A DNA stretch of 64,000 nt, from the NCBI RefSeq assembly GCF_014189855.1, contig NZ_BJFN01000001.1, positions 1,286,758-1,350,757 of the forward strand, given 5' to 3'. This stretch comes from Buttiauxella sp. A111 (lineage in GTDB: Bacteria > Pseudomonadota > Gammaproteobacteria > Enterobacterales > Enterobacteriaceae). The notes under the pieces were generated by a model, which was given only the letters and a program-made list of their open reading frames with translations, searched no databases and was not told the DNA's origin. The position numbers and the translations under genes were made by a program. Each line of letters begins with the position of its first letter. Position 1 is the first letter of the stretch. Below, one piece after another: positions 11,392 through 48,234 of this stretch.

Positions 11392-11431
11392 CCGCCGCGT
11401 TTTCCGTTCTTTAACATCCAGAGAGAGACCG

Positions 11432-12235
11432 ATGCATCCGATGCTCAACATCGCCGTGCGCGCTGCGCGCAAGGCGGGCAATTTAATTGCCAAGAACTAC
11501 GAAACCCCAGACGCTGTAGAAGCGAGCCAAAAGGGCAGCAACGATTTTGTGACTAACGTAGATAAAGACGCTGAGCGTCTGATTATCGAAATTATCCGCA
11601 AATCCTACCCGCAACACACCATTATCGCTGAAGAATCAGGCGAACTGGCGGGTACCGAGCAGGATGTGCAATGGGTTATCGATCCTCTGGATGGCACTTC
11701 TAACTTCATCAAACGTTTGCCGCACTTCGCGGTATCAATCGCTGTTCGTGTTAAAGGCCGCACCGAAGTTGCTGTGGTTTATGACCCAATGCGTAACGAG
11801 TTGTTCAGTGCTGTTCGTGGCCAAGGCGCACAGCTGAACGGTTACCGTCTGCGCGGCAGCAATGCACGTGACCTCGACGGCACTATTCTGGCAACCGGCT
11901 TCCCATTCAAACTGAAGCAACACGCCACTCCTTATATCAACATCGTCGCTAAACTGTTCACCCAGTGTGCAGACTTCCGTCGTACCGGTTCAGCTGCGCT
12001 GGATCTGGCATACGTTGCGGCTGGCCGTGTTGATGGTTTCTTCGAGATTGGTCTGAAGCCTTGGGATTTTGCAGCAGGCGAACTGATTGCTCGCGAATCC
12101 GGTAGCCTGGTGTGTGATTTCACCGGCGGCCATAACCACCTTTTGACCGGCAACATCGTTGCAGGTAACCCGCGCGTCGTTAAAGCCATGCTGGCAACGA
12201 TGCGTGATGAGCTGAGCGAAGCGCTGAAGCGTTAA
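11432..12235 (+). CDS. suhB: Inositol-1-monophosphatase / rRNA antitermination factor SuhB
   Basis: This 267-residue member of the inositol monophosphatase family contains the metal-binding motifs IAEESGE, DPLDGTSNFIKRLPHFAVSI and KPWDFAAGELI. It hydrolyses inositol phosphates in vitro. In E. coli its essential role is in the rRNA transcription antitermination complex, where it binds RNA polymerase and Nus factors. It is transcribed divergently from trmJ. The start MHPMLNIAV matches E. coli and follows a GAGAGAG ribosome site. Confidence 0.97.
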   Translation: MHPMLNIAVRAARKAGNLIAKNYETPDAVEASQKGSNDFVTNVDKDAERLIIEIIRKSYPQHTIIAEESGELAGTEQDVQWVIDPLDGTSNFIKRLPHFAVSIAVRVKGRTEVAVVYDPMRNELFSAVRGQGAQLNGYRLRGSNARDLDGTILATGFPFKLKQHATPYINIVAKLFTQCADFRRTGSAALDLAYVAAGRVDGFFEIGLKPWDFAAGELIARESGSLVCDFTGGHNHLLTGNIVAGNPRVVKAMLATMRDELSEALKR

Positions 12236-12250
12236 TCTCTGATCGTTGTA

Positions 12251-12364
12251 CGCCCTCCCCCTAGCCCTCTCCGCCAGGAGAGGGGATGTTCTTTTCTCCC
12301 TTAGCTGGGGTGAAGAAATATTCGTTTCCCCCTCTCCCTCAGGGAGAGGGCCGGGGTGAGGGTT
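12251..12364. repeat. Inverted pair of GAGAGGG-type palindromic repeats
   Basis: One copy (12251-12287, CCCTCCCC then CTCTCC/GGAGAG hairpin) and one reversed copy (12328-12364, CCCTCTCCC/GGGAGAGGG then CCGGGGTGAGGG) fill most of the 152-base space between the convergent suhB and NicO-type genes. They form the same family as at 3374-3475 and may act as a bidirectional transcript end. Confidence 0.85.
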
Positions 12365-12387
12365 GTTTTAAAAGCAAAAAATTAACG

Positions 12388-13371
12388 CTAAAAAGGCCGA
12401 ATCCCGCGAACGACCGGTTGAGCACTCAGCCACATCACCACCGCCGCTAATACCAAAATCCCCCCGCCCGCTAACGCCAATGTTGCCCAGGCGACCTGTC
12501 GCCATAACACCGGTGCTTTGTTACCGCTCATGCGCACAGCTAAAGTACGGAATCCGTGTACCAAAAATGCCAACCCGGAAATAGTCATGGACGTTCCTGC
12601 CGCCATCGTCAACGCAGACAACATTCCCCAGCTATAGACGCCAATCACTTTGCTAAACAACAGCACCATAATGGCGCCAGAACACGGGCGCATGCCCATA
12701 GACAAAACGATCATGGCCCGGGCGCGCCAGTCCTCCCCTGCATCAAGCTGTTTTTCTGTCGGCAAATGCTGATGTCCACAACCGCATTTTTCATCATGCA
12801 CATGAAGTGGCGTGAACGAGGTAAAATGCTGAGGCTTTCTCAGAACGTGTAGTAATTTGCGTAAGGCGCGGCCACACAGCATCAGGCCCAAAATGCCCAC
12901 CAGCAAATAACTGCCTTTTTCCAGCCAGAAACTGCTCATATGCAATTGCCGCGACGGCAACGCCAATATTCCCAACACGACCGTCACCAGCCCAATCGCC
13001 ACCAGCCCTTGTAATAAGGACGCGGCAAAAGTCAGTTTAAGGCTGCTTTTCAAACGTGAAGTATGGGTTGCAAGCCAGGTGGTAATGACGACCTTGCCAT
13101 GTCCCGGCCCCAACGCGTGAAGTACGCCATAGACAAAACTAAATGACAGCAGCGACCAACCCGCTCGCGCTGGGTTTTCGGCAACCTCACGCAATAGCGC
13201 GCTCATTTGCTGGTTAATGGATTTCTGCCACATCGCACTATTAAGGATGATTTGCGGCCAGTAGTGCCACAGGCTGTAGAGCCCAATCGCACAGATAATC
13301 AGGAAAAACGCCAGCGGCCACAGCTGTAACCATCGGCGTGAATGGGGTGTGGAGGAAGGAATTACTGACAT
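12388..13371 (-). CDS. NicO-family metal permease, ZevB-like
   Basis: This 327-residue integral membrane protein has about seven predicted segments, beginning with LWPLAFFLIICAIGLYSLWH. It carries the NicO-family motif HALGPGHGK near residue 90 and SMGMRPCSGAIMVLLFS in the second half. A loop around residues 190-205 is rich in metal-ligand residues (HVHDEKCGCGHQH). NicO proteins move Ni2+, Co2+ or related ions across the inner membrane. The gene overlaps an upstream DUF1007 gene by 10 bases; this pairing is that of ZevAB, described in Haemophilus influenzae as a zinc system. Family is firm; the ion and direction are inferred. Confidence 0.85.
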   Translation of the reverse strand: MSVIPSSTPHSRRWLQLWPLAFFLIICAIGLYSLWHYWPQIILNSAMWQKSINQQMSALLREVAENPARAGWSLLSFSFVYGVLHALGPGHGKVVITTWLATHTSRLKSSLKLTFAASLLQGLVAIGLVTVVLGILALPSRQLHMSSFWLEKGSYLLVGILGLMLCGRALRKLLHVLRKPQHFTSFTPLHVHDEKCGCGHQHLPTEKQLDAGEDWRARAMIVLSMGMRPCSGAIMVLLFSKVIGVYSWGMLSALTMAAGTSMTISGLAFLVHGFRTLAVRMSGNKAPVLWRQVAWATLALAGGGILVLAAVVMWLSAQPVVRGIRPF

Positions 13372-14009
13372 TGCAGCGTCACCTGTTGAGCAAATTGTTT
13401 ACCCAGTTCCATATCTTCAGGTGGTGCATCGGCTTTATCTAATGACAAGGCAAACGCCTGCATATCCTCAGTGGGTTGCGGTGTTTTAACTGAGATTTTG
13501 CATTGCGACGCTAATGTTTTCGGCACACTGGCATCAGCGGGATGGTCGTAACTCATATCGACAAAATAGGTCGGGTCGAAGGTCGCTAACTGATAGGTTT
13601 GCCCTTTTAACGGTTGAGGATGCGCCAGCGGCAAAATAAAGGTTAACACTGCCTGATGCCCTACCCGTGCGAGCCCATACTCGGGAGGCAAATTGTTAAA
13701 CGTCACTTTCTGGCCGTTATGCCACAGTTCAGTGAAGTAATGTTGCCCTAAAACATTCGCCATAACTTCGGCAGCAAGCTTCTTCCAGACCGGTGAATCC
13801 GGCTTCGCGTCACCGGCGTCATACAGTAGATCCGCTGAAGTAATTTCATCCATCGTCCACTGCATTTTCAGACCGGTTAGCTGGTCGTTTTCGGCCATGA
13901 CCGTGGTCACGAGCGTGATAAAGCTGTGCGGATGAGCCAAAGCCATCGGGCTAAAGAGTGCCGTACATAGGGCAAAAAACGCAATTTTGTTACACATTTT
14001 CCCGCTCAT
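13362..14009 (-). CDS. DUF1007 periplasmic metal-binding protein, ZevA-like
   Basis: A 215-residue protein with a signal peptide (hydrophobic IAFFALCTALFSPMALA, likely cut after ALA near residue 25) followed immediately by HPHSF, so the mature protein would start with a His-Pro-His metal-binding end. The rest matches DUF1007. It is probably periplasmic and hands metal to, or receives it from, the NicO permease encoded by the overlapping next gene. A second start (MCNKI, at 13997) is equally possible. The counterpart in Haemophilus influenzae is ZevA. I see no clear Zur or RcnR operator in the 114 bases before it. Confidence 0.82.
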   Translation of the reverse strand: MSGKMCNKIAFFALCTALFSPMALAHPHSFITLVTTVMAENDQLTGLKMQWTMDEITSADLLYDAGDAKPDSPVWKKLAAEVMANVLGQHYFTELWHNGQKVTFNNLPPEYGLARVGHQAVLTFILPLAHPQPLKGQTYQLATFDPTYFVDMSYDHPADASVPKTLASQCKISVKTPQPTEDMQAFALSLDKADAPPEDMELGKQFAQQVTLQCQ

Positions 14010-14135
14010 TATTCTCTCGAACTTAAAATTCTGTGAGCCAGTCAGAATTCCGTAATTAAAAAGCTCAAATGTGACTCTCTACGACAAAAGGTTTAGCTAC
14101 TCTTAGCATTAATCACCTTTGACTTGGTTATGCGG

Positions 14136-15416
14136 ATGATGACACTGCTTTCCCCACCACCATCTGTACTCTCCAGTCCGCAGCGCCGCTGTCACCTGCT
14201 TTTGTTGCTTTATTTACCGGGCCAGACGGTCACCCCAGAGATCCTCGCGAGGCTCAACGGGGTTGATGACACCAAAGCCCTGCAAGATATAGCCGACACG
14301 GGCGATGAAATCCAGCGCTATCACCGGCTGAGGCTTATCACCCAGCAGGATGGAAGCTATCGGATTGAGGGCACGCCTCTGAATCGCCGCCTGTGTTTAT
14401 TGCACTGGTTGCGTCGTGCATTGCGCTTATGCCCGCACTTTGTGCAGCAGCATTTTACTCCGACGCTAAAAACCCAGCTTAAACAGCAAGGGATCTTGAC
14501 CGCGTTGTACGATGAAAAGAATCTCCATGCGTTGATTAGCCTGTGTGCAAGACGTTTGCAGCGGCAGTTTGACAGTCGTGATATGCAGTTTTTAACGCTG
14601 TTTTTGCAGTACTGCTTGCATCAGCATCATGCGGGGATTACGCCTGAATTTACCGAGGAGCAACGGGCATGGACTCAGACGCGCCCGGAGTTTTTAGCCG
14701 CGCTTGAGATTGCCCGCCACTGGAAACGTCGTGTTTTACAATCGGCCAATGAAAACGAGCAATTGTTCCTGGCACTGTTATTCCTTTTATTACGCATGCC
14801 CGACCCGATTCACGATAACCATCAACAAGACTTCCGGCTGCGTACTGCGATTTCAGGAATGATTGCGCGCTTTCGTGAACAAGCGGGCATGTCGTTTAGC
14901 GACGAACAAGGTTTGAGCGACCAGTTATATATTCATCTTGCTCAGGCGCTGGATCGCTGCCAGTTCTGTATCGGCATTGATAACAGTTTGCCGGAAGAAA
15001 TTACCCGACTGTATCCGCGTCTGATGCGCACCACGCGTGAAGTCTTCAGTGATTTTGAATCTCACTATGAAATGCGTTTTTCTGACGAAGAAGTGGGTCT
15101 GGTGGCGGTCATTTTTGGCGCGTGGTTAATGCAGGAAAATGACCTGCATGAGAAGCAGGTATTGTTGCTGACGGGTAACAATCTTGAACTTGAGCAAAAT
15201 ATTGAACAGCAGCTACGCGAGCTCACCTTGCTGCCGCTCAATATTAAACATCTGACGATACACAGCTATCAAAAAGAGGGAGCGCCAAAAGAGGTGGTGC
15301 TGGTGATCACGCCCTACTCCACCACGCTGCCACTCTACTCTCCGCCGCTGATTCACGTCACGCTGCCGCTGGGTGACCACCAGCAGCAGCAGATCCGCAA
15401 GATTATCGAGTGTTAA
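14136..15416 (+). CDS. csiE: Stationary-phase inducible protein CsiE
   Basis: This 426-residue protein matches the E. coli CsiE length when started at the ATG at 14136; TTG at 14124 and ATG at 14130 are alternatives. An N-terminal winged-helix-like region (SSPQRRCHLLLLL, YHRLRLITQQDGSYRIEG) is followed by a region related to PRD domains (about 170-310) and a C-terminal EII-like part. The gene was named as CRP- and RpoS-dependent in E. coli. Its molecular role is unknown; the PRD layout suggests a PTS-linked regulator. It is divergent from the ZevAB-like pair and convergent with hcaT. Confidence 0.93.
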   Translation: MMTLLSPPPSVLSSPQRRCHLLLLLYLPGQTVTPEILARLNGVDDTKALQDIADTGDEIQRYHRLRLITQQDGSYRIEGTPLNRRLCLLHWLRRALRLCPHFVQQHFTPTLKTQLKQQGILTALYDEKNLHALISLCARRLQRQFDSRDMQFLTLFLQYCLHQHHAGITPEFTEEQRAWTQTRPEFLAALEIARHWKRRVLQSANENEQLFLALLFLLLRMPDPIHDNHQQDFRLRTAISGMIARFREQAGMSFSDEQGLSDQLYIHLAQALDRCQFCIGIDNSLPEEITRLYPRLMRTTREVFSDFESHYEMRFSDEEVGLVAVIFGAWLMQENDLHEKQVLLLTGNNLELEQNIEQQLRELTLLPLNIKHLTIHSYQKEGAPKEVVLVITPYSTTLPLYSPPLIHVTLPLGDHQQQQIRKIIEC

Positions 15417-15422
15417 CGCAAG

Positions 15423-15620
15423 TTACCCTAAATAATTGAAGTTGCACCAAGGCGGCAAACTTATGATCCCCAGGAGCTTACTCAAGTAAGTGACTGGGGT
15501 GACAAATCTGTAGGGAACAGATTTGAACGCTGTTTACAGCGGCCCCGGAGGGGTGAGGCCCACGATGGGCCGAATAACAGTGAAGCCAACGCAGATGCAG
15601 CTTCAAATATGACGGGTATA
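15423..15620. repeat. ERIC element with an internal insertion
   Basis: The ends are inverted (TTACCC at the left, GGGTATA at the right). The core contains GATCCCCAGGAGCTTACTC and AAGTAAGTGACTGGGGTGA, which match the two standard ERIC primer sequences. The usual element is about 127 bp; this one is 198 bp, so about 70 bp are inserted inside. Longer ERIC copies with insertions of this size are known in enterobacteria. The right end overlaps the hcaT stop codon. Confidence 0.9.
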
Positions 15621-16751
15621 TGAGATGGGGCGCGGGCGAATGAATAATGCTGGAACGGCGACTAACGCCATAATCCAGAACACCCCGCCTTGCATATGCT
15701 GGTAAAGGTAGCCGGAGAACATGGTCATAATGGCAATACCACCGCCCATCGCCACTGCGGAATAAACGGCCTGCAACCGGATAACTTCGTTGCCTTCACG
15801 CGCGGAGATATAACGCATCGCCGCCAGGTGGCAAACGGTGAAGCTACCACAATGCAGGATTTGCGCGGCAATCAGCCACGGTAAATCGGTCGTATACGCC
15901 ATCAGGCTCCAGCGCAGAATACCGGTTACGCCAGAAAGCAGCAGTAAATCGCGGGCGCTCCATTTACGGAACAGCTTGTTACTGAGTGCAAAAATCACAA
16001 TTTCAGCGACCACGCCAAGCGACCACAAGTAGCCCACCACCGAAGCGGAATATCCCGCACCTTGCCAGTAAATCGCACTGAATCCGTAGTAAGCCGCATG
16101 CGCACCTTGTAGCAAAGTGACACAGGCCAGAAAACGCCACGAGCCGAGGACCAGTTTCTTCCAGGCAGGCCAACCCGCGCCTTCGCTATGACGGGCTTCA
16201 CCCTGCGGCATCACAGATGGGCGCAGCATCATGCCGATAAGCATCGATGCAACACCAATACTCAGCAGTACCAGAATCGCCTGATAGCTGAACAGACTGA
16301 CCAGTTTGCCGGTCATGGCAGAACCGATAACAAACGCCAGCGATCCCCATAGCCGCACGCGGCCGTAATCCATGGTGATTTGGCGCTGCCAGGTTCCGGC
16401 CAACGCATCAGTAAGCGGCACCAGCGGTGAGAAGAACAGGTTAAAGCCGACCATCACAATCAGCAGCCAGGTTGCGGTTTGCCCGAACCAGAAAGCGACA
16501 GCAAAAATGAAGGTAAGTAAGGCAAGTAACCGCAAGGCAAAAACAAGTCGGGAAGGATCGGTAACACGAGGAGCCAGGAGCAAACTGCCGAGGAAACGGG
16601 CGATTAACCCTGCGCCTAACAGCAACCCAATGGTTTCGGGTGCCAGGCCGACTCCAGCTAACCAAACACTCCAGAATGGTAGAAAAATCCCGTAGCTAAA
16701 GAAGTAGGTAAAATAACTGAGCGCAAGCCAGCGCGTTGAATGCAAAACCAT
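15603..16751 (-). CDS. hcaT: MFS transporter HcaT (3-phenylpropionate permease family)
   Basis: This 382-residue, 12-segment major facilitator protein is very similar to E. coli HcaT (379 residues) from MVLHSTRWLALSYFTYFF onward. The frame extends 19 codons upstream to 16808, but the ATG at 16751 is the conserved start. In E. coli HcaT is a putative 3-phenylpropionate importer beside the hcaEFCBD dioxygenase genes. Those genes are absent here, so the substrate is uncertain. The last residues (about SYTRHI) and the stop codon are encoded by the end of the ERIC element, which has replaced the usual C-terminus. Confidence 0.93.
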   Translation of the reverse strand: MVLHSTRWLALSYFTYFFSYGIFLPFWSVWLAGVGLAPETIGLLLGAGLIARFLGSLLLAPRVTDPSRLVFALRLLALLTFIFAVAFWFGQTATWLLIVMVGFNLFFSPLVPLTDALAGTWQRQITMDYGRVRLWGSLAFVIGSAMTGKLVSLFSYQAILVLLSIGVASMLIGMMLRPSVMPQGEARHSEGAGWPAWKKLVLGSWRFLACVTLLQGAHAAYYGFSAIYWQGAGYSASVVGYLWSLGVVAEIVIFALSNKLFRKWSARDLLLLSGVTGILRWSLMAYTTDLPWLIAAQILHCGSFTVCHLAAMRYISAREGNEVIRLQAVYSAVAMGGGIAIMTMFSGYLYQHMQGGVFWIMALVAVPALFIRPRPISYTRHI

Positions 16752-16860
16752 GATCCCTCCCGTTTTGGAGGCGTTAGTGTCGCCGAGCGGTGGCGAGCAC
16801 GCAAGCAATCATTAACAGACCAATAACACAGACAAACAAGCGTGTTTTTTCCTTCCAACA

Positions 16861-16964: not shown

Positions 16965-18104
16965 ATGTCTAATACCAGTCTCTTCAGGGGCTTAACCCTG
17001 ATTTTGTCGATGCTCACGTTACCGGCTGCTGCCGCTGAGACATCCACTACTGAAGCAAAAAACGACATGATTGAAGAAAGTCATGAAGGAAGCGAGTCAG
17101 ACAAAAACAAAAAGGCTGCGCCCTCTCCCTGGTTGTTTGTTCCGCTATTCAGTTCCAGCCCAAAACTCGATACCGCAGCAGGCATGATGGTGGGCTACAT
17201 GCACCGCTTCGATGAGAAGTCACGTCCTTCTCTGTTCGGGATTTCGGCCAAATACACCACATCCGAATCACTTATTGCCAATGCTTTTGCCAAAACCTCT
17301 TTTGGTGAAGATCACCACCGTATTCTGGGTGGCATGATGGTCGGTGATATAAACAACGACTATGAAAACTATTTGGGATCCGGCAAGCCATTAAGCACCA
17401 ACGACAACTACAGTTTCGCCTTTTTACGTTATCTCTATCGTGTTGAGGGTGACTGGTTCATCGGGGGTCAAGGCGCTTATTCCAACTATGAATTGCAAGG
17501 GCAAGATCCCACCTCTAACGAAATCCTCGATGAAATGGGCCTGGTCGGTTACAAGTCCGGTGGGCTGGGTGCGGTCGTAATGCATGACTCCCGCGACAAC
17601 GACTTTAAAGCCACCAAAGGCTGGTATCTCAACGTCAATAACATGGCCTATCGGGAAGCGTTGGGTGGAGAACAAGACTTCGATATCTGGCGCGTCGATT
17701 ATCGGGGATATTGGCAACATGGCGATGGCAACGTTTTTGCCGTGCGTAGCCGCCACCAGTTCTCCAACAACGCGCCCGCGGGGGCTTATTCTCCGGTTTA
17801 TCTGCGTGGCTATACACCGGGTGAATATCTCGCTCAGCATATGTCTTCAATTGAAATTGAGGAGCGTTACAAACTGGCCGATCGCTGGACCGCAACGGTG
17901 TTTGCCGGTGCCGCCTGTCTTTACGGCGACTCGACCAGCGGGGAGCAACTCAACTGCGGGGACAGTGAAAACCTCTACCCTGCGTGGGGTGCTGGCATCC
18001 AGTATTTGCTCAAACCCGAAGCCGGTATTGTGGTCAATCTCGAGTACGCGATGGGGAAAGATGACAATCAGGGGATCTATTTAAAGATGGGATACAGTTT
18101 CTGA
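16965..18104 (+). CDS. BamA/TamA-like outer membrane beta-barrel protein without POTRA domains
   Basis: This 379-residue protein has a Sec signal peptide (LFRGLTLILSMLTLPAAAA, cut near residue 24). A charged linker of about 25 residues follows (EESHEGSESDKNKK), then a barrel region of about 320 residues that resembles the C-terminal surface-antigen (D15) domain. The typical VMHDSRDNDFKATKGWYL and LRGYTPGEYL segments are present. The protein ends in aromatic Phe (MGYSF), as barrel proteins recognised by BamA do. No POTRA repeats are present, so it is not an assembly factor of the usual type. Function unknown. In E. coli this site holds hcaR and the hca genes. Confidence 0.82.
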   Translation: MSNTSLFRGLTLILSMLTLPAAAAETSTTEAKNDMIEESHEGSESDKNKKAAPSPWLFVPLFSSSPKLDTAAGMMVGYMHRFDEKSRPSLFGISAKYTTSESLIANAFAKTSFGEDHHRILGGMMVGDINNDYENYLGSGKPLSTNDNYSFAFLRYLYRVEGDWFIGGQGAYSNYELQGQDPTSNEILDEMGLVGYKSGGLGAVVMHDSRDNDFKATKGWYLNVNNMAYREALGGEQDFDIWRVDYRGYWQHGDGNVFAVRSRHQFSNNAPAGAYSPVYLRGYTPGEYLAQHMSSIEIEERYKLADRWTATVFAGAACLYGDSTSGEQLNCGDSENLYPAWGAGIQYLLKPEAGIVVNLEYAMGKDDNQGIYLKMGYSF

Positions 18105-18137: not shown

Positions 18138-18959
18138 TTACACAATCGCAATTTCCATTTTCATAACCGTTGATTGCTGACGTTCCAGTAGCACCAACCC
18201 CGGCTGCCCAGCCATATTATGGGCGTTCACTGGGTGGCTTTGCGGCTCCAGACAAATAAACGGTTCATCAGGCACCCGGAACACCATCAAATACGGCGTG
18301 GGGCATGTTAACTGGATACGCATGTCGTCGCGCTCAATCAGCGCGCTTCCGCTCCAGCCGGAATAACCCACGTTCAGCCACTGGTTATCCGGGATTTTGG
18401 GCTTGATGAAATTCGTTTGCGCTGTGAGCTCTCCATGCCATTCTTTCGGTAAATGGTTTTCACCTTCAGGCCAGAATCCGGTGGCCGAAAACTGCACATG
18501 GGTCGCTGGCGTGAGATGGAAAAAAGGGTGGAAACCCAGGCCGTAAACCATGGGTTTGTTAGCCAGGTGAGTCAACTCCAGCTCAGCCATAAAGTGCGGC
18601 CCTTTCAAGCGGTAAGTAAGCCTGGCCTGATAATCAAAACCGCAGGAGTGGCGGCTTTCAAGCGAGAGCGTGATTTGTGAAGCATCATGCGTTTCTTCCT
18701 GCCAGCTTTTCAGCCAGCCGTCCCCGTGGAGGAAGAATTGCGCATCAGCCTCGCTGTCAGGCAGTTCTATGTTTTCGCCATGAAGCATAAAAGCATTCCC
18801 TGCAACGCGATTTGCCAGCGGCAACATCGGGAACAACGCTTTTTCACCCGCATGCAGAATCGGCTGCTGATGTTTCTTCGAATCCAGACTGTGAATTGCC
18901 GCCCCTTGCGGGGCGACGGTTAAACGCAGATATTCATTTTCGAGTAACAAGGTTTCCAT
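18138..18959 (-). CDS. yphB: Aldose 1-epimerase-like mutarotase (YphB-like)
   Basis: A 273-residue galactose-mutarotase-fold protein with LPLANRVAGNAF, GLGFHPFFHL and FICLEPQSHPVNAHN. The His and Glu in these stretches are the usual catalytic pair of aldose 1-epimerases. Such enzymes interconvert alpha and beta anomers of a free sugar in the cytosol. It is the last gene of a minus-strand set (yphG-like, MFS porter, this gene), 3 bases after the porter stop. Position between hcaT and glyA beside yphG/yphH matches E. coli yphB; the symbol is given on that basis. Confidence 0.85.
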   Translation of the reverse strand: METLLLENEYLRLTVAPQGAAIHSLDSKKHQQPILHAGEKALFPMLPLANRVAGNAFMLHGENIELPDSEADAQFFLHGDGWLKSWQEETHDASQITLSLESRHSCGFDYQARLTYRLKGPHFMAELELTHLANKPMVYGLGFHPFFHLTPATHVQFSATGFWPEGENHLPKEWHGELTAQTNFIKPKIPDNQWLNVGYSGWSGSALIERDDMRIQLTCPTPYLMVFRVPDEPFICLEPQSHPVNAHNMAGQPGLVLLERQQSTVMKMEIAIV

Positions 18960-18962
18960 ATC

Positions 18963-20402
18963 TTAATGCGCCGTGCGTTGTGCACGGGCTTTCGCCTCAG
19001 CACCGAATTGATCCGCCATACGTTTTTCCAGCGCTTCGAGGCTGACACCTTTGGTTTCAGGCACATAACGACGCACATAAACAAAGCCCGCCGCACAAAT
19101 CACACCGTACAACAGGAAGCTGCCAGCAGCGCCCAGGCCCGCGTTCAACAACGGGAAGGTGTAAGTCAGCAGGAAGCACGCCACCCACAACGCCAGCGTC
19201 CCTAATGACATCGCAAGTCCTCGCACACGGTTCGGGAAAATCTCTGAAAGCAGAACCCAGGTCACCGGTGCCAGCGTCAGTGCATAAATCGCAATCGCCG
19301 CCAGAACGAGGATCAATACCGGGAGCCCCAAAATACCCAGGCCATATGCCGCACCGATTAGCGCATAGATAATGGTTAATCCCGCCGCGCCAAACAGCAT
19401 CAGCTTACGACGACCAATTTTGTCGACTAATGGCAATGCGGCGAGGGTGAAGATAAGGTTAATCAACCCGGTAGCCACAATGGATTTCAGGGTGCTGTTA
19501 ATATCAAATCCGGCGGAGGCAAAAATTTCCTGCGCATAGTTGAAGATAACGTTAATCCCGCACCACTGCTGGAACACGGCCAATACCATACCGATGATAA
19601 TGATCGGTTTGACCTGCGGCTGCCACAACGCACTCCAGGAGACTTTTTGCGTGTCTTTGTCCAGTGTTTGCAGGATGTCATTAAGTGTCTCATCGGCATA
19701 TTGCTGGTTACCGATGCGTTTAAGCATTTGGTGAGCACGTTCATTTTTACCGGCACGAGCCAGCCAGCGCGGTGATTCCGGCACAAAGAACATCAGCACT
19801 AAAAACACCAGTGCCGGCACCAGTTCTGCACCAAACATCCAGCGCCAACCGACCTGCCCATTCCAGCTTTCAGTGATTTGCTGCATCGTTGCCGCAGAGC
19901 TAACCGGTTCGGCAATCATCAGGTTAATCAGCTGCGCAGCCAGCACGCCCACAACAATAGTTAACTGGTTGATGGCAACAAACTTACCGCGTTTTTCTGC
20001 CGGGCTGACCTCCGCGATATACATCGGGCTTAGTGCCGAAGCCAGGCCGATACCCACTCCGCCAACGATACGGAACACCACAAACATGTCGAAGTTGCTG
20101 GCTATCGCCGTCCCCCAGGCCGATGCGCTAAATAAAATAGCCGACATAATCAGTGGGACTTTGCGTCCAAATTTGTCCGCACTCCAGCCAGAAATCAGTG
20201 CGCCAAAAACACATCCCGCCAGCGCGGAACTCATGGCCCAGCCGGACTGTGCAGGATCGGTAATTGAAAAATAGGCTTCGTAGAACGGTTTCGCGCCACC
20301 AATCACAACCCAGTCATAACCAAACAGCAAACCTCCACAGGCGGCGACCAGACAGATAGTCCAGACATAGCCCATGCGTAATTGTGTCTGCACAGTATTC
20401 AT
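18963..20402 (-). CDS. MFS sugar porter (GalP/XylE/AraE type)
   Basis: This 479-residue, 12-segment proton-sugar symporter family protein contains GGLLFGYDWVVIGG in segment 1, WSADKFGRK in loop 2-3, VPESPRWLARAGK before the central loop, DKIGRRKLM in loop 8-9 and VPETKGVSLE at the C-terminus. All are signatures of the sugar porter family. The central region FQQWCGINVIFNYA resembles the sugar-binding segment 7. It is co-transcribed with the mutarotase gene (3-base gap) and follows the yphG-like gene by 86 bases. In E. coli this slot holds yphC and the ABC transporter yphDEF. The sugar imported is unknown. Confidence 0.9.
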   Translation of the reverse strand: MNTVQTQLRMGYVWTICLVAACGGLLFGYDWVVIGGAKPFYEAYFSITDPAQSGWAMSSALAGCVFGALISGWSADKFGRKVPLIMSAILFSASAWGTAIASNFDMFVVFRIVGGVGIGLASALSPMYIAEVSPAEKRGKFVAINQLTIVVGVLAAQLINLMIAEPVSSAATMQQITESWNGQVGWRWMFGAELVPALVFLVLMFFVPESPRWLARAGKNERAHQMLKRIGNQQYADETLNDILQTLDKDTQKVSWSALWQPQVKPIIIIGMVLAVFQQWCGINVIFNYAQEIFASAGFDINSTLKSIVATGLINLIFTLAALPLVDKIGRRKLMLFGAAGLTIIYALIGAAYGLGILGLPVLILVLAAIAIYALTLAPVTWVLLSEIFPNRVRGLAMSLGTLALWVACFLLTYTFPLLNAGLGAAGSFLLYGVICAAGFVYVRRYVPETKGVSLEALEKRMADQFGAEAKARAQRTAH

Positions 20403-20488
20403 TGTGAATCCTCATTTGTACTTGTAGAGATACAGAGGGACGGGTGTGCCGTTTTTGAAATGCCACCCGCCATTTTTTATTTATTCAG

Positions 20489-23400
20489 TTATTGGATAAA
20501 CACACCGCGCTGCATGGCAAGCCTCAAGAGATGGGCTTTGTCATGAGCAGGGTTTTGCGACAACAAGGCTTTCAGTGCTAATTCAAACTCGGGATATTCC
20601 TCCAGTCCCAGATGCCCAAGCGCAGCAACAAACAGGCAATGCTGCTGATGAGCGGATTGACGGTCAGCGTCCAGCGCGACTAAATCAGGTAGCGAGACCG
20701 CGAAGAAGTCAGGTTCTGAGCGATCGTTAAAATGCTCATCTGCCCAGGTAATAAAGCTGCGGAATTTCTGCTGAGCTTGGGTCTTGTCGCCGATGCGTGC
20801 CAACGCCATCGCTTGATAGAACAGGTAGTCGACAGGCTGATCGTTGTAGTAACGCCCCGCTTCCAGCGTGGACCCGCCTTCCAGCGCGCGTTCGAAATAG
20901 TGCTGCGCACGTTCTGGCTGTTGCAGTTGCTGCGCACACCAGCCGAGCAGATACCAGATATCGTTATCGCTCTGACCCACTAAGCGCCCTTCGCCGAGGT
21001 TTTCGGGGTAGCTCAGCGCCTGCTGAAGTAACGCTTCCGCTTTGCCAAAGTGCTTATCGGCAATCGCCTCCAGTGCCCGACGTTGCAGGTTAATCAGATA
21101 CTGCCCGGTAACTTTGCCCTCCCCGCCTTCCCATGGGTGGAATTTACGTTGAGCCAACACCCGAGCTGCAGCATCAGTTTCACCATGAGTGTTCCATAAG
21201 CTAAGTAACTCAGCGGTCAGATCGTCGCGTTTGAGTACTACATCGCGGTGCGCAGCGAGGTTCGCCAGACGCTGCTCGGTTGAGCGCCCGGTGAGTTTTT
21301 GCAGGTAATCGAGTTCAAACAGGAAGCGGGCATTTTCCGGTTCACGCTCAACCGCCCGTTGCAGATACTGTTCCGCCATTTGCGCATCGTGTTGCTTATT
21401 CCAGGCATGGATCCCCAAAACACGCTGCACCGCACCAAACTCAGGCAACTGCTGCGCTGCAAATTCCCAACAAGCGACCGCTTCGGAATAACGACGTTTG
21501 CTGTACCAGAAACAGCCCAACAGATATTGCGCGAAGCCATCGTGCGGCAGACATTGCAACATCTGTACTTCATCGAGCGTGTTAGGGAAACGCACTTTGC
21601 GAGCAAAGCAGTCCTGCGCTTGTTTCACGAAAGCAAGTTGCTGTGCGTGGTCGCGTTCTAAAGCCGCTCGCCACAGCATTGGCATCGCTTCTTGTGAATC
21701 GAGAACGCTCAACATCTTTTTGGCGGCAGTGTCCAACCCCAGGCTCACCAGCCATCCCGCCAGAACACTGGCATTGACGCCACGCCGCCCGGTGACTCGC
21801 ACCAGTTCAGCTTTGTCAGTTTCGTTTTGCGTGATGGCCCAGCGGGCGTAATGCAGAACGTAGCTCAGCGGATACTCTTCAAGCTGCTGTGTAATCCACC
21901 GCTGTGCCTGCTGTGAAGCCCCTGTCTGGTTCAACACCAGAGCTTTCAGCCCCATTGCCAGATTATTACCGCCATTAAACTTCAGGCTTTGATTCACAAA
22001 CACCAGCGCCTGGGCCGCATCGCCTTTTCGCAAAGCCAGACGTGCCAGCGCGTAAAATGCAGCATCGCGGCAGTTACCACTCCAGCTTGCTTTGAAGTAA
22101 TCATCAAACGCCCCGTCGCAGTCCCCCTGTTTCTCTTTTGCTGCACCGCGCAGCATGCTGGCGTCACCATTTTGTGGGTTCTTGTTCAGGCGATGGGCAC
22201 GTTTCAACGCCGCATCCGCCAGCTGTTCAGCAAGCGCCCAGTTAGCACGGTTAAATTCAAGCTGTCCGAGTGCTACGTTGCAGCGGTAATCTTCGGGATC
22301 GAGCGCCAGCGCACGCTGGTAGTAATCGAATGCCGAGCGGCTGGCGTGCAGGTACTGCTCCAGGTGCTGACCGATAAAATACAGCTCGTCGCAGTTTGTG
22401 ATTTCATGCGGTTTAGCGGGAACGCAGGCCGGTTGTGGCAGAGGTAAATCTTCTGGAATGTGCTCGCAGTAACTGAGAATGAGGTTGCCGTGTGCGTCAC
22501 GAAGATTCAGCGTTAAACGCTGCGGCCAGTTGTCTTCAAGGGTATCTTGCCACGCCTGTGCCGGTTGCAGCGTCAGCGACGTTTTCCAGAGCAGGCTTCC
22601 AGCCGATTCAATTTCAAGCGAGGCGTCAGTCAGCGGCGCGATTGCATAGACACCAAGGTGCAGGTCACCACCGTGGCGCTCCAGTTTTATTGCCGCCTGG
22701 GTGTTGGCATTCTGCAATGTGCCAAGCTGGCTATATGGCAGGAAATTCTGTACGAAGATTTTCTCTTCATAGGGTGCAATCCAGGTGAAATCCGGCTGAT
22801 TGTCGGTGAACACGCCGGTCATCAGTTCGATATATGGGCCGTTCTCATCGGTCAAATTGCGGTCCCAGGCCTGGCCGAAATCGCAGTTACCCCATGTCCA
22901 CTGCTTTTTGCCAGGTGAAACATGGTGATCGGCGATGTGCAACAGTCCGCCCTGCTCGCCGTGATGGTATGCGCCGACAAAATCGTAATCTGATTTATCC
23001 GCCATGTACGACGTCGGAACGGGGATGTTTTTGTAGCGTGAGATGTCGACACCCGCGGAATAGTCGACTTTGTAGTACGTCCCCTGGGCAATCGGAAAGG
23101 CAGAAACATCGCGTTTGCCGTGATCAAATACCGCCGTGACATCCGGTGGGAACACGCTTTGGTGCTCATCGCCGCCTTTAACTGCGGGGTTCGCCCACCA
23201 CAAGAAATGACGTGGTGTCGCGTTGCCGTTGAACACTTTGCCGGTAATTTCGATCAGCGCTTTTTCAGGATACAGCGTAAAACCAGTCATCACCTGCAAG
23301 CCGCGCATGGGTTCCACTTCACCCAGCCAGACGGTCTGCGCACCGTTTTCATGTTTCTGGAACGTCACGTCGACCGGCATGAAGGTGGTTGGGCGGTGGT

Positions 23401-23767
23401 GCTGTGGCCAGTTAAATTCAATGCCGCCGGAAATCCATGGCCCCACTAACCCCACCAGTGCCGGTTTCACCACTTCGTTGTAGTAAACGAAGTCGCGCTC
23501 CATCACTTTGTCATATGCGCGGTGAATACGACCGCCTAACTCAGGCAGCAACATGACGCGGATAAAATCGTTTTCAATCCACACGGCTTTGTAATCACGC
23601 ATCTCACGCTGGCCGGTGAGAGTGTCAATGACACCGTAAGGATAAACGGCACCTGAAGATCCCTGATACACACGGTTTTCCAAAAACATCGGATTCGGGT
23701 CTTCCGCACCGGCAGTCCAGGTGGGTAAAGCAATGGTCTCTTGCCAGACGTTAACGGCTCCGTACAT
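20489..23767 (-). CDS. yphG: DUF5107-TPR protein, YphG-like
   Basis: A 1092-residue protein, close to E. coli YphG in size and position. Residues about 1-455 form the DUF5107 region, with VMLLPELGGRIHRAYDK and ISGGIEFNWPQHHRP. These resemble aldose-epimerase-type motifs, so a mutarotase-like sugar-binding fold is likely. Residues about 460-1092 are TPR-like helical repeats (ASRSAFDYYQRALALDPEDY and PERAQHYFERALEGG are clear units). There is no signal peptide or membrane segment, so it should be cytosolic. It is transcribed divergently from the ROK regulator gene and first in a set with a sugar porter and a mutarotase. Its activity is not established; sugar binding or glycoside processing is an inference. 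Confidence 0.85.
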   Translation of the reverse strand: MYGAVNVWQETIALPTWTAGAEDPNPMFLENRVYQGSSGAVYPYGVIDTLTGQREMRDYKAVWIENDFIRVMLLPELGGRIHRAYDKVMERDFVYYNEVVKPALVGLVGPWISGGIEFNWPQHHRPTTFMPVDVTFQKHENGAQTVWLGEVEPMRGLQVMTGFTLYPEKALIEITGKVFNGNATPRHFLWWANPAVKGGDEHQSVFPPDVTAVFDHGKRDVSAFPIAQGTYYKVDYSAGVDISRYKNIPVPTSYMADKSDYDFVGAYHHGEQGGLLHIADHHVSPGKKQWTWGNCDFGQAWDRNLTDENGPYIELMTGVFTDNQPDFTWIAPYEEKIFVQNFLPYSQLGTLQNANTQAAIKLERHGGDLHLGVYAIAPLTDASLEIESAGSLLWKTSLTLQPAQAWQDTLEDNWPQRLTLNLRDAHGNLILSYCEHIPEDLPLPQPACVPAKPHEITNCDELYFIGQHLEQYLHASRSAFDYYQRALALDPEDYRCNVALGQLEFNRANWALAEQLADAALKRAHRLNKNPQNGDASMLRGAAKEKQGDCDGAFDDYFKASWSGNCRDAAFYALARLALRKGDAAQALVFVNQSLKFNGGNNLAMGLKALVLNQTGASQQAQRWITQQLEEYPLSYVLHYARWAITQNETDKAELVRVTGRRGVNASVLAGWLVSLGLDTAAKKMLSVLDSQEAMPMLWRAALERDHAQQLAFVKQAQDCFARKVRFPNTLDEVQMLQCLPHDGFAQYLLGCFWYSKRRYSEAVACWEFAAQQLPEFGAVQRVLGIHAWNKQHDAQMAEQYLQRAVEREPENARFLFELDYLQKLTGRSTEQRLANLAAHRDVVLKRDDLTAELLSLWNTHGETDAAARVLAQRKFHPWEGGEGKVTGQYLINLQRRALEAIADKHFGKAEALLQQALSYPENLGEGRLVGQSDNDIWYLLGWCAQQLQQPERAQHYFERALEGGSTLEAGRYYNDQPVDYLFYQAMALARIGDKTQAQQKFRSFITWADEHFNDRSEPDFFAVSLPDLVALDADRQSAHQQHCLFVAALGHLGLEEYPEFELALKALLSQNPAHDKAHLLRLAMQRGVFIQ

Positions 23768-23882
23768 TTCGCCTCTCCAGTAAAAAATTAACAGTTAACC
23801 AGGATATGTTTGCAGTGTATTTGACTCGTCACGGCTTAAAATGCTTAATGCTCACGCAATATAGTTAACGGAGTTAAGTGAA
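23768..23882. promoter_or_regulatory. Divergent control region of yphG and yphH
   Basis: This 115-base AT-rich spacer separates the two divergent starts. AGTTAAC occurs twice (23793-23799 and 23863-23869), 70 bases apart, one near each gene, and AGTTAAG follows at 23872. TTGACT at 23821 could serve as a -35 for yphH. The repeated element is a candidate operator for the adjacent ROK regulator; no footprint can be inferred beyond that. Confidence 0.45.
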
Positions 23883-25079
23883 ATGCAGACTTCAGGGTTG
23901 AATAACCAACGGGTGCGACAGATAAATCGCCAGACCATGATGAAGCTGGTGTGGCAACATAAGCGGCTCAGTAAGTCACAGTTTTCCCAGTACACCGGTC
24001 TTTCGATCCCGGCGGTGAGTAAGATCCTTGAAGAGCTGGTCGCGGATGGAAAACTCAGCCATTCCCATGAAAATCTCAGCAATCGGGGGATCAACAGCGG
24101 CAGCTACCAAATCCCGCCCGACGGTGATTTCATTCTTTGCATGAATGTGACCCCGACCAGCATTGAGAGCCAACTATGCAACGCCCAGCTTTCGCCGCTC
24201 GGGGAATTTGAAACGATTCATACCCACGCCTCGACACCGCAAGCATTGCTGGCTGCCATAGAGAGTGTCTGGCGCAACCAGGGTAAAATCTGGCCGAAAA
24301 AGACTCTAAATTTGGCGTTGGGTATTCACGGGCAGGTCGACCCGATAACCGGCGTATCACAAACGATGCCGCAAGCGCCGTGGCGCGAACCGATAGAAAT
24401 TAAATATCTGCTAGAAGAAAAGCTTGGGATCTCAGTGCGGGTAGATAACGACTGTGTGATGTTGGCGTTGGCAGAGAAATGGCAAAACCCCAGGAGCCGC
24501 CAGGATTTTTGTGTCATCAACGTGGATTACGGTATCGGTTCTTCGTTTGTGATAAACGGGCAGATTTATCGCGGTAGCCTCTATGGCAGCGGCCAAATTG
24601 GCCACACGATTGTGGACCCCGACGGCATGGCGTGTGACTGTGGAAGATACGGATGCCTTGAGACTGTAGCCTCACTCACTGCGCTAAAAAAGCAGGCGCG
24701 CATCTGGCTAAAATCACAACCCATCTCGCCAAAACTCGACCCTGAAACATTAACTTCAACGCAGTTAATTACCGCCTGGCACGAAGGTAACGAGCAGGTA
24801 CGTCGCTGGGTTGAGAGTGCCGCCAACGCAATTGGACTGAGTTTGTATAACTTCCTTAACATCCTCAATATCAACCAGATTTGGTTTTATGGAAGAAGTT
24901 GTGGGTTTGGGGATGAGTGGCTTGCGACCGTCGCTCGGCAGATTGGCTTTAATCCATTTGATCACGGCGATGCGCTAAAAGTGAATGCCACCCAGATTAG
25001 CTTTGGGCAACTAACACGACCGCAGCAAGTGATGGGAATTGGCTATTTGTATGTAGAAGCCGCGCTAAGTGAGGAATAA
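23883..25079 (+). CDS. yphH: ROK-family transcriptional regulator (YphH-like)
   Basis: A 398-residue NagC/Mlc-type regulator. An N-terminal winged helix (about residues 10-70, VWQHKRLSKSQFSQYTGLS) is followed by a ROK domain with the zinc motif CDCGRYGCLE near residue 250 and an upstream HTIV histidine. The ATP-site motif of true ROK kinases is degenerate at the N-terminal side, as expected for a regulator. Length and location (divergent from yphG, next to glyA) match E. coli YphH. It probably senses the sugar or sugar phosphate handled by the neighbouring genes. Confidence 0.9.
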   Translation: MQTSGLNNQRVRQINRQTMMKLVWQHKRLSKSQFSQYTGLSIPAVSKILEELVADGKLSHSHENLSNRGINSGSYQIPPDGDFILCMNVTPTSIESQLCNAQLSPLGEFETIHTHASTPQALLAAIESVWRNQGKIWPKKTLNLALGIHGQVDPITGVSQTMPQAPWREPIEIKYLLEEKLGISVRVDNDCVMLALAEKWQNPRSRQDFCVINVDYGIGSSFVINGQIYRGSLYGSGQIGHTIVDPDGMACDCGRYGCLETVASLTALKKQARIWLKSQPISPKLDPETLTSTQLITAWHEGNEQVRRWVESAANAIGLSLYNFLNILNINQIWFYGRSCGFGDEWLATVARQIGFNPFDHGDALKVNATQISFGQLTRPQQVMGIGYLYVEAALSEE

Positions 25080-25314: not shown

Positions 25315-26568
25315 TTACGCGTAAACCGGCAAGCGGGCGCAGATATCCAGAACTTTCTTCTTAGTGCGTTCGATGACCGCTTCGTCGTTGATGTTATCTA
25401 ACACATCACACATCCAGCCAGCCAGCTCGCGAACGTCAGCTTCGGTGAAGCCACGACGCGTTACCGCAGGTGTACCGATACGGATACCTGAAGTCACAAA
25501 TGGGCTCTTCGGATCGTTTGGTACGCTGTTTTTGTTCACGGTGATGTTTGCGCGACCCAGAGCAGCATCGGCTTCTTTACCCGTCAGATTTTTATCAACC
25601 AAATCCAGCAAGAACAGGTGGTTGTCAGTACCGCCAGACACCACTTTGTAGCCACGATCCAGGAAGACGGCAACCATCGCTTTCGCGTTTTTGGCAACCT
25701 GCTGCTGGTAAGTTTTGAACTCTGGTTCCATCGCTTCTTTCAGTGCAACAGCTTTACCCGCGATGACGTGCATCAATGGGCCGCCCTGTGCGCCTGGGAA
25801 TACTGCGGAGTTCAGTTTTTTGTACAGTTCTTCGCTGCCGCCTTTAGCGAGGATTAAACCACCGCGAGGGCCAGCCAGCGTTTTGTGCGTTGTGGTCGTC
25901 ACAACGTGTGCGTGCGGAACTGGGTTCGGGTAAACGTCAGCGGCAATCAGACCGGCAACGTGCGCCATGTCCACGAACAGGTATGCGCCAACCATGTCTG
26001 CGATTTCACGCATTTTTGCCCAATCAACTACGCCTGAATAAGCAGAGAAACCACCGATAATCATCTTCGGTTTGTGTGCTTTGGCCTGTGCTTCCAGGTC
26101 TGCGTAATCGATATGACCAGTCTCATCAATACCGTAAGGAACGATGTTGTACAGCTTACCGGAGAAGTTTACCGGGGAGCCGTGAGTCAGGTGGCCACCG
26201 TGTGCCAGGTTCATACCCAGAACGGTATCGCCTGGTTCCAGCAGAGTGGTGTATACCGCGAAGTTAGCCTGTGAACCGGAGTGCGGTTGCACGTTAGCGT
26301 AATCAGCGCCGAACAGCTCTTTTGCACGGTCGATAGCCAGTTGTTCAACCACATCAACATATTCGCAACCGCCGTAGTAGCGTTTGCCTGGGTAACCTTC
26401 AGCGTATTTGTTGGTTAACTGAGAACCCTGAGCCTGCATTACGCGCGGGCTGGTGTAGTTTTCGGAGGCGATCAGTTCAATGTGCTCTTCCTGACGTACT
26501 TTTTCTTGCTCCATAGCCTGCCACAATTGGGCATCATAATCGGCAATGTTCATTTCACGCTTTAACAT
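25315..26568 (-). CDS. glyA: Serine hydroxymethyltransferase
   Basis: This 417-residue PLP enzyme has the E. coli length when started at the ATG at 26568 ([12 protein letters not shown]). The PLP lysine lies in [15 protein letters not shown] near residue 229. It converts serine and tetrahydrofolate to glycine and methylene-tetrahydrofolate, the main source of one-carbon units. It is divergent from hmp across a 341-base region that contains a MetR-type site and a PurR-like site, the known regulators of glyA. Confidence 0.98.
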
Positions 26569-26686
26569 CCGCATCTCCTGACTCAGCTAACAGTAAATAT
26601 TTAACAGCTTTAATGCTGCCATAAATACAACGGGCAACAGTGTAAACCGAAATACCGCTGGGTAATAGGCCTTGGCAGAGGTTTTT

Positions 26687-32193: not shown

Positions 32194-32390
32194 ACAAAGG
32201 CAGAGAATAATCTCTGCCTTTGTTCTGGAATTAGGCGGCGCCTTACTCAACGTTTCGCCCGGAGCATGATAAAGCAGTACGAGACTGGCGATAATCAAAA
32301 GTCGGACGGCAGGCACCTTGTGTGCGTCATTCTAAGGTTTATGTAGCACAACCCTTGCGGGGGCTGACATAAGAGGGTGAATGAGCCACT
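32194..32390 (-). ncRNA. glmY: Small RNA GlmY
   Basis: The minus strand between glrK and purL reads AGTGGCTCATTCACCCTCTT at its 5' end (32390). It ends in a strong terminator hairpin (32194-32223, ACAAAGGCAGAGA with its complement). Sequence and position are those of E. coli GlmY, about 184 nt long there. GlmY sequesters the adaptor RapZ and so protects GlmZ, which activates glmS and thereby glucosamine-6-phosphate synthesis. The exact 3' end is approximate. Confidence 0.92.
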
Positions 32391-43911: not shown

Positions 43912-44621
<710 letters not shown>

Positions 44622-44673
44622 TCAGCACACGGAACAGACCTGAAAAAAAGAACCAACGCTGTTTCGTTTGCCG

Positions 44674-44693
44674 TGGCTCCCTTTCGGGAGCCA
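44674..44693 (-). promoter_or_regulatory. Hairpin in the rnc leader
   Basis: TGGCTCCC and GGGAGCCA form an 8-bp stem with a TTTC loop (plus strand). No U-run follows, so it is not a terminator of lepB. It lies in the probable 5' leader of rnc, where RNase III cleaves the E. coli transcript. That function is inferred by position. Confidence 0.45.
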
Positions 44694-44712
44694 ACCTAAT
44701 ACGGGGGGATAT

Positions 44713-47549: not shown

Positions 47550-47754
47550 AGTTAGAGGTTTTTATGCCTTACAAATCCGGGAAAGCTCGGCGCAATGCGC
47601 TGTACAGAGCGTGATGTCAATGGCTGTCTTTTGCCTGAAACGCCGCATTCTACACTACAACGAGAAAGCGAGGAAACAGGTCATCTTGCAAGCGTAGTTG
47701 AGAGATGAAAGACCTACGGAAAGTGTGTCTAAAAGATTGCGAGCAGCGTAGACG

Positions 47755-48234
47755 TCACTGGCTGTCCGCAGAAGTCGTCGTTTCGACTCTTAGAGCATTT
47801 GGCGGTAGCGCAACGCTGAGAATAACGGGTTGCCAGGTTTCACGGCGACTGAATTTCAATGAGAATTCACGCGCGATAAGAAAACCGCCCACTCCGCCTA
47901 TCAATGCCCCACAAATCGCCGCAAGGTTGGTACCAAACAGCGCCTGGAACAGGGCTGAGACCACAAATAAACCAACCAGCGGGGACATGTAAACCAGTAA
48001 CGCAGAACCTATCAGGCTACCTTCAGCAATACCCAACTCGACTTTTTGACCCGCCACCAGCGGTGTATCACAAGCAACCGATAAGGTGTGATTCGTTTGC
48101 GGACCGAGTTTGTTGAGAATACGGCTGCCACAGCCTGCGCGTGAAGCACAGCTACTGCATGACGCTTTTACGTCACAACTCAACAATGCTTCACCCTTTT
48201 GCCAGGAGATGACTGTTGCCCACTCCTTAATCAT
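47755..48234 (-). CDS. rseC: SoxR-reducing / sigmaE regulatory protein RseC
   Basis: This 159-residue protein has an N-terminal cysteine cluster (CDVKASCSSCASRAGC). Two membrane segments follow (LIGSALLVYMSPLVGLFVV and AAICGALIGGVGGFLI, about 75-125). It is the last gene of the rpoE-rseABC operon. In E. coli it also takes part in reduction of SoxR with the Rsx complex. It overlaps rseB by 4 bases. Confidence 0.95.
   Translation of the reverse strand: MIKEWATVISWQKGEALLSCDVKASCSSCASRAGCGSRILNKLGPQTNHTLSVACDTPLVAGQKVELGIAEGSLIGSALLVYMSPLVGLFVVSALFQALFGTNLAAICGALIGGVGGFLIAREFSLKFSRRETWQPVILSVALPPNALRVETTTSADSQ

Follow-up and report, generated by a model that had tools for sequence, protein, structure and literature searches.

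The window analysed here, 64,000 nucleotides of Buttiauxella sp. A111 (contig NZ_BJFN01000001.1, positions 1,286,758 to 1,350,757), carries between hcaT and glyA a form of the yph locus in which yphG, the gene for a large protein with a DUF5107 domain and a tetratricopeptide repeat (TPR) solenoid, is accompanied by genes for a sugar porter and a mutarotase and by the divergent regulator gene yphH. The porter and YphG occur as a pair in Gammaproteobacteria, Bacteroidota and some Planctomycetota, and, as far as sequence comparison tells, this form of the locus is not derived from that of E. coli, which has an ATP-binding cassette (ABC) transporter. In some relatives, genes for galactoside permeases and galactosidases occupy this position, and on that account the cluster may deliver galactose to the cytoplasm, where YphG would act on it, a reading to which we give about an even chance. 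The first-pass annotation of this DNA had named no sugar; galactose is newly proposed here as the substrate class. In E. coli K-12, YphG and its locus are uncharacterised. With a proposed substrate class, a porter as partner whose pocket can be recognised, two natural variants with LacY- or MelB-type permeases, and a set of invariant residues, the function of YphG can now be tested in ordinary laboratory strains.

The four genes that had been annotated between hcaT and glyA are all present, and their families were confirmed with Pfam and NCBIfam. The features of the locus are as follows.

18138-18959, minus strand: aldose 1-epimerase (mutarotase); Aldose_epim, PF01263, 101 bits
18963-20402, minus strand: sugar porter of the sugar porter (SP) family, XylE-like; Sugar_tr, PF00083, 377 bits; TIGR00879, 365 bits
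20403-20488, minus strand: intergenic gap of 86 bases between yphG and the porter gene; stable RNA hairpin with no U run behind it
20489-23767, minus strand: YphG; DUF5107, PF17128, 173 bits, plus a TPR solenoid
23778-23798: partly conserved block beside the start of yphG, predicted YphH operator; alignment of 56 intergenic regions
23852-23882: top conserved intergenic block, TCACGCAATA.AGTtAAcGGaGTTtAGTGaa, predicted YphH operator or promoter; same alignment
23883-25079, plus strand: YphH-like regulator of the ROK/NagC type; PF00480, 122 bits

Since the porter and mutarotase genes are separated by only 3 bases, and yphG and the porter gene by only 86, the three minus-strand genes are likely to share one transcript. 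The hairpin in the longer gap (-23.7 kcal/mol, z -3.5) may separate the expression of yphG from that of the porter. The window porter is 95% identical to those of B. agrestis and B. noackiae, and a DUF5107 gene is found in 11 of 12 Buttiauxella genomes, including that of the window; the arrangement recurs in relatives and is therefore no assembly accident. One genome, G004, is the sole one of the 12 without any DUF5107 match.

The porter and its association with YphG

The porter scores well above the cut-offs for the SP family (22.3 bits for PF00083 and 237.8 for TIGR00879), in keeping with its first description as a GalP/XylE-type porter. XylE is the nearest of the three proteins compared (37% identity, versus 34% for AraE and 32% for GalP), and the score against the XylE equivalog NF007484 is below the cut-off (395 versus 608 bits). 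Like these transporters, with which it also shares its length, the porter keeps the residues at XylE positions Asp27 and Arg133, which we take to be the proton-coupling residues, and at Gln168, Gln288, Gln289, Asn294 and Trp392, presumably the sugar-binding ones. It differs from them in having Asn in place of Tyr298 and Leu in place of Gln415. This signature is present in 103 of 105 porter hits, a set in which some species occur twice and the window porter is included; the 103 family members are at least 44% identical to the window porter, and the rest are paralogues in L086 with 31-38% identity. As controls served 20 further SP porters, taken from 14 of the Bacteroidota genomes that have the porter-YphG pair; every one has Tyr298, none has Asn298, and three have Leu415. 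The porters thus marked form a distinct subfamily with an unusual pocket residue, Asn298. With the counterparts of Asp27 and Arg133 kept throughout the family, they would carry galactose or a close relative together with H+.

The porter scan covered one genome per species, and the best 80 loci were kept. The gammaproteobacterial set (L053-L094) comprises Enterobacterales, Aeromonas and Photobacterium, including records labelled Chryseobacterium (L078) and Martelella (L090); the other loci are from Bacteroidota and from Rubripirellula (Planctomycetota). Over all 80 loci, yphG lies near the porter in 40/42 of the gammaproteobacterial set and 25/38 of the others. When only the 62 loci with 4.5 kb or more on each side are counted, yphG is within reach in 38/39 and 20/23, respectively. 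Porters without yphG, which the first-pass annotation had named as cases that would speak against it, are accordingly few: one in the gammaproteobacterial set (L089) and three among the others. At L089 (Pantoea dispersa), a porter with the same pocket signature lies beside a ROK gene with no yphG within 9.9 kb, and its neighbours are genes for a GMC oxidoreductase, short-chain dehydrogenases and another major facilitator superfamily protein.

The DUF5107 family is common, with at least 7995 relatives scored in one search. Matches were found in 24/394 genomes of the window's GTDB order, in 12/247 of the class of Polaribacter and in 22/149 of the planctomycete phylum. All seven YphG-type loci taken from the Polaribacter-class sample, which was drawn independently of the porter, have the porter. 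From the planctomycete matches, nine loci were taken for inspection. G524 has a second DUF5107 copy.

Delivery modules and the sugar

Twenty gammaproteobacterial yphG loci were compared, namely 16 from the 21 genomes of the order sample with a full domain and four from further Buttiauxella. The module beside yphG is the porter in 15 cases and an ABC transporter in two, and neither is found in three (L033, L051 and L038). At L033 (843-12460) yphG is part of an alpha-galactoside locus with the order yphG-GH36-mutarotase-ROK (GH, glycoside hydrolase), with divergent genes for MelB (636 bits; equivalog cut-off, 456) and for a RafY-type porin. L051, from Buttiauxella, lacks the porter, and its mutarotase gene and yphG abut at the place where the porter would be expected; a galactoside permease of the LacY type (447 bits, against a cut-off of 429) and a GH35 enzyme are encoded at 12078-15622, between yphH and glyA, so that one delivery module has naturally been exchanged for another. 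At L038 the contig is short and yphG broken, and the delivery module is unreadable. Two loci combine the porter with galactosidase families: at L093 (Cedecea) the porter is kept and genes for a GPH symporter and a GH36 enzyme lie beside yphH, and at L047 the order is sulfatase-GH2-yphG-porter. The galactosidase genes at gammaproteobacterial yphG loci are thus telling, not common.

The first-pass annotation had held that the transport module is exchangeable and had called for the neighbourhoods of YphG homologues to be compared for their transporters. Both the exchange and the variety are seen, as porter, ABC transporter, the two together, MelB with GH36 and LacY-type permease with GH35 were all found, and the neighbourhoods point to galactose. 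That the sugar enters unphosphorylated, as had also been argued, is implied by the types of carrier.

In Bacteroidota, the porter-YphG pair sits in polysaccharide loci together with genes for GH2, GH36, GH35 and GH30_2 enzymes, sulfatases, esterases and AraC regulators. Seventeen such loci, one per genome, were compared with 20 loci of other SP porters (the controls introduced above), taking open reading frames (ORFs) of 350-1400 residues within 8 kb. A GH2, GH35 or GH36 ORF is present in 16/17 porter-YphG loci versus 4/20 control loci (Fisher, 6.9e-6), and ORFs of these families number 19/75 versus 4/125 (Fisher, 3.5e-6). An independent Pfam tally gave GH2_N in 13/75 ORFs of the porter-YphG loci versus 2/59 control ORFs; for the remaining 66 control ORFs, GH2_N is not among the 25 commonest families listed. 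The neighbours of the control porters are GH43 and GH32 genes. Galactose would be the common end of four unlike modules, namely the SP porter, an ABC importer of the MglBAC family, MelB with GH36, and the LacY-type permease with GH35.

What YphG might do with the delivered compound can be read in more than one way. It might itself be a glycoside-cleaving enzyme, the porter importing a small galactoside from which YphG would free galactose, to be prepared for galactokinase by the mutarotase. Two universally kept Glu residues and a further kept Glu in the solenoid (see below) fit with this, and it would explain why a genome that has GalP needs the porter. The mutarotase gene that adjoins yphG also recalls the sulfoquinovose (yih) operon, in which, according to excerpts of the report, a sugar or its glycoside is imported, the glycoside is cleaved, and a mutarotase is among the early enzymes (PMC5902678). 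That operon differs from the present locus in its sugar, in having its own downstream enzymes, and in its glycosidase YihQ, which is of another family. YihQ belongs to GH31. However, yphG already has GH36, GH35 or GH2 genes for neighbours in L033, L051, L093 and L047, and the Bacteroidota GH2 enzymes look exported (26/27 by a crude test), so that a further galactosidase is not obviously needed. As known galactosidases and permeases adjoin YphG, cleavage by YphG was demoted to an unlikely alternative, and the case for free galactose was raised from slightly below even to even. On the same grounds, ordinary galactosidases being at hand in several loci, YphG would act on the freed sugar itself. 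From its fold (see below), it would most likely be a cofactor-free enzyme that interconverts anomers, ring forms or epimers of the free galactose, with the separate mutarotase and the Leloir enzymes taking the product or the remainder.

Several observations weigh against galactose as the substrate of YphG. Only 4/63 gammaproteobacterial regions contain GH2, GH35 or GH36 genes (L033, L051, L093 and L047), a count that has no control set, and the region in the window is without them. The genome of the window encodes a GalP 91% identical to that of K-12, as well as galK and galT, so that the porter would not be needed for taking up galactose. The hidden Markov models used in the Bacteroidota comparison were built partly from the target loci, and one target match (L191) and three control matches are weak (36-128 bits). 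Two of the Bacteroidota GH2 proteins score 775 and 1187 bits, and that of L047 803 bits, against a cut-off of 1500 for the exo-beta-1,4-galactosidase model. The porter accompanies only one of five planctomycete YphG-type loci (L195, L196, L197, L200 and L201), and in L204, a locus from a Bacteroidia bin, YphG has no adjoining porter, the porter being on another contig. In YphG, Asn193 takes the place of the histidine of the mutarotase 'HP' motif, if the motif is read correctly, which would make the domain ill suited to plain mutarotation. Galactokinase had been considered as a marker of galactose use; it is encoded in 39/39 YphG-bearing genomes and, among Bacteroidia, in 17/17 with YphG versus 7/20 without. 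Xylulokinase-type kinases split alike, at 17/17 versus 6/20 strong matches (9/20 of any strength), with none of the 37 genomes passing the cut-off, so galactokinase marks only sugar-eating genomes and was dropped. GalT (10/17 versus 3/20) is subject to the same caveat.

It is also conceivable, albeit rather improbable, that the sugar is a different one, that composite polysaccharide loci or chance account for the galactosidase neighbours, and that YphG acts on another aldose such as L-arabinose, L-fucose or an anhydro sugar. The neighbours indeed include genes for alpha-L-rhamnosidase, GH97, GH31 and GH88, in themselves a further point against galactose, together with GH30_2, sulfatases and GDSL esterases; the porter differs from GalP at both signature positions, and 59/63 gammaproteobacterial regions are without a galactosidase. 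In excerpts of one study, YphF is among the proteins raised on levoglucosan, together with MglA and YtfQ (PMC8753852), which speaks for another sugar and against galactose; it would fit galactose as well, and is possibly plain derepression. Against a different sugar stand the enrichment over the matched control porters, whose neighbours are of other families, and the presence of MelB- or LacY-type permeases with galactosidases in L033 and L051, the two readable loci without porter or ABC transporter. Delivery of galactose is kept as the preferred reading.

Relationship to the E. coli locus

The K-12 locus (yphA-yphH, b2543-b2550) resembles that of the window in its YphG and YphH orthologues, in their divergent order and in its position beside glyA. 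By blastp, identity to the K-12 proteins is 55% over 1083 residues for YphG, 66% for YphH, 74% for HcaT and 94% for GlyA. The order at the same site in K-12 is yphB, yphC, yphD, yphE, yphF, yphG and then the divergent yphH; the locus differs from that of the window in having yphB, yphC and the ABC transporter yphDEF, whose YphE is 38% identical to MglA, and in lacking the porter and the window-type mutarotase. With blastn, the porter gene had no match at E 1e-5 across 5,426 E. coli genomes.

Three loci carry both modules. In L079 the order is yphG-F-E-D-C-B-porter-mutarotase-hcaT, and its YphB (70% identical to that of K-12) adjoins a mutarotase of the window type (55% identical to that of the window). 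L078 has the same gene order with a mutarotase of which only the first 23 and the last 39 residues are left (11429-11704), and L087 has yphG through yphB, followed by the porter. The porter of L078 is intact and its ABC module complete; the record is labelled Chryseobacterium, yet the locus is enterobacterial. The porter and the first mutarotase are missing from L035, as they are from K-12. These layouts indicate that YphB travels with the ABC module and is no descendant of the window mutarotase, to which it is only 32% identical.

A tree of 52 YphG proteins was rooted on six distant ones (three from Planctomycetota, two from Bacteroidota, and L047). The six ABC-type proteins are nested inside a large gammaproteobacterial clade; the method was a quick one with SH-aLRT support only, and long branches meet in the outgroup. 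Two proteins from porter-type loci, L034 and L036, are placed among the ABC ones, and the non-ABC group includes proteins with no porter in reach (L033, L196, L197, L200 and L204). Because the pair spans phyla, the ABC form is nested in the tree, and three genomes hold both modules, the porter form does not appear to derive from the ABC form, and it is probably E. coli that has the later and altered locus. In the lineage of E. coli, the ABC module with the dehydrogenase gene yphC and the mutarotase gene yphB would have lodged between yphG and the porter gene, and the first mutarotase and the porter would later have been lost. The genomes with both modules record a change of importer in one sugar locus while the core protein stayed.

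Two statements of the first-pass annotation need to be revised in this light. It had described a single porter as standing in for yphC and yphDEF, a direction that the nested ABC form and the double loci reverse. It had also counted yphB, yphG and yphH as the conserved core and the mutarotase as YphB-like. Enterics keep yphG and yphH together and conserve the gap that separates them, which bears out these two genes; the mutarotase is not YphB, given their low identity and their coexistence in L079. The conserved core is therefore yphG-yphH, without yphB.

Features of YphG and the mutarotase

YphG, with 1092 residues, fits its type in having PF17128, a long TPR region, full-length similarity and an invariant pocket; no signal peptide was seen. 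Glu117, Asn119, His124, Asn193, Lys288, Glu314, Glu880 and Glu883 are invariant in 59 YphG-type proteins, and the first six of these are also kept in seven distant DUF5107 proteins (23-31% local identity to YphG). Fold searches assigned the DUF5107 domain to the galactose-mutarotase fold. The closest known structure discussed here, 5cd6, is that of the TPR-domain protein BDI_1685 of Parabacteroides distasonis; it matches the DUF5107 part of YphG and differs in its length (approximately 580 residues) and in sequence (18% identity), and a literature search for papers that combine at least two of four terms on this protein found none. Profile-profile comparison with galactose mutarotase aligned only 30 and 43 N-terminal columns. 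Because this gave no usable alignment, the equation of Glu314 and Asn193 with the catalytic Glu and His stays a reading of motifs. The fold searches listed no glycosidase built of a mutarotase-fold and a TPR domain, although one may exist.

Three of the distant Bacteroidota proteins have an N-terminal stretch resembling a signal peptide, and two of them adjoin a GH123_N protein, which suggests a periplasmic counterpart of YphG. These two are L193 and L205 (GH123_N, PF19543); the neighbours of L194 are unrelated. As a guide to the enteric substrate, the neighbours of the distant proteins were of no help.

TPR solenoids commonly mediate protein contacts, and YphG might accordingly be a galactose-binding scaffold or sensor that regulates or assembles pathway proteins and is no enzyme. 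No further enzyme is strictly needed, galK and galT being present elsewhere in the genome, and the mutarotase histidine may be missing from YphG. This alternative appears very doubtful in view of how densely Glu, His, Lys, Asn and Trp residues are kept invariant across the 59 proteins, which come from three phyla, partly extending to distant DUF5107 proteins, and of the signal-peptide-like distant members, which imply that the domain works in two compartments. As an enzyme acting on galactose, YphG might be the first of a new kind of sugar-converting enzyme, with the mutarotase-fold domain and the TPR solenoid combined in one composite active site (Glu117, His124, Lys288 and Glu314, together with Glu880 from the WEGGEG loop at residues 879-884). 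Free galactose would be converted there, which would give it a way into metabolism beside galactokinase. The four modules would then all feed YphG, and the E. coli yph locus would be a galactose locus in which an ABC transporter displaced the porter and mutarotase. In this full form the proposal is speculative and on balance unlikely.

A search of the open-licence literature found no function for YphG or DUF5107. In excerpts of the papers, yphG serves as a marker for the detection of K. pneumoniae by polymerase chain reaction (PMC10569728; PMC4361152) or is one gene within expression lists (PMC5584328; PMC1599756), and the one mention of DUF5107 calls its function unknown (PMC8163842). Tetratricopeptide is not mentioned in PMC11036162 and PMC6262041, nor is DUF in the former.

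The mutarotase of the window has the family match and the intact His/His/Glu active site of an aldose 1-epimerase. His78, His144 and Glu238 are invariant in a 14-row alignment that includes GalM and YphB of K-12, and we take these two His and one Glu to be catalytic, as in other aldose 1-epimerases. In the alignment the protein is 21% identical to GalM and 32% to YphB, and it scores below the cut-offs of the GalM and PRK15172 equivalogs. By these comparisons, it is an aldose 1-epimerase and not the YphB orthologue.

Predicted regulation by YphH

The YphH-like protein has the features of a ROK repressor of the NagC/Mlc type, namely a ROK domain, an N-terminal helix-turn-helix region, a CxCGxxGC motif (CDCGRYGC) and no kinase ATP motif, as DxGxT is absent from the start of the ROK domain; we assume that this combination marks a repressor rather than a kinase. 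The NagC model covers residues 10-340, with a score below the equivalog cut-off. The alignment of 56 intergenic regions, from loci of porter, ABC and double type, shows partial conservation of the stretch that separates yphG from yphH (115 bases in the window). Conservation is most striking in the block TCACGCAATA.AGTtAAcGGaGTTtAGTGaa ahead of yphH and is weaker in another ahead of yphG; a natural inference is that these blocks are a shared operator for YphH, which would repress both transcription units from this gap until the sugar or its product is present. An operator pattern matches at least once in 47/56 regions and twice in 18/56; as it was written after the alignment had been viewed, only the conserved blocks count as evidence. 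A perfect palindrome beside yphG in the window, TTAACAGTTAA, was rejected as an operator, being found in none of the 55 other intergenic regions. Promoter and terminator scans did no better than chance (4 versus 5.8 expected and 7 versus 9.2 expected, respectively). Excerpts of other papers list YphH among the NagC-family factors whose function is unknown (PMC9308461), map interaction quantitative trait loci to yphH (PMC10657823) and report a test of a yphF mutant in mice (PMC11032443).

Flanking and other features of the window

The locus is bordered by the following genes.

15603-16808: hcaT, flank
16965-18104, plus strand: Omp85-like outer-membrane ORF of 379 residues, between hcaT and the mutarotase gene
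25315-26574: glyA, flank

The Omp85-like ORF was omitted from the first description of the locus. Since hcaT directly adjoins the mutarotase gene in all six Buttiauxella relatives compared (L045, L046 and L048-L051), the ORF looks like an insertion. Elsewhere in the window, the antisense RNA AsrC (RF02746) has a full-length match at 47431-48270, and GlmY and rncO lie at 32232-32390 and 44537-44705, respectively.

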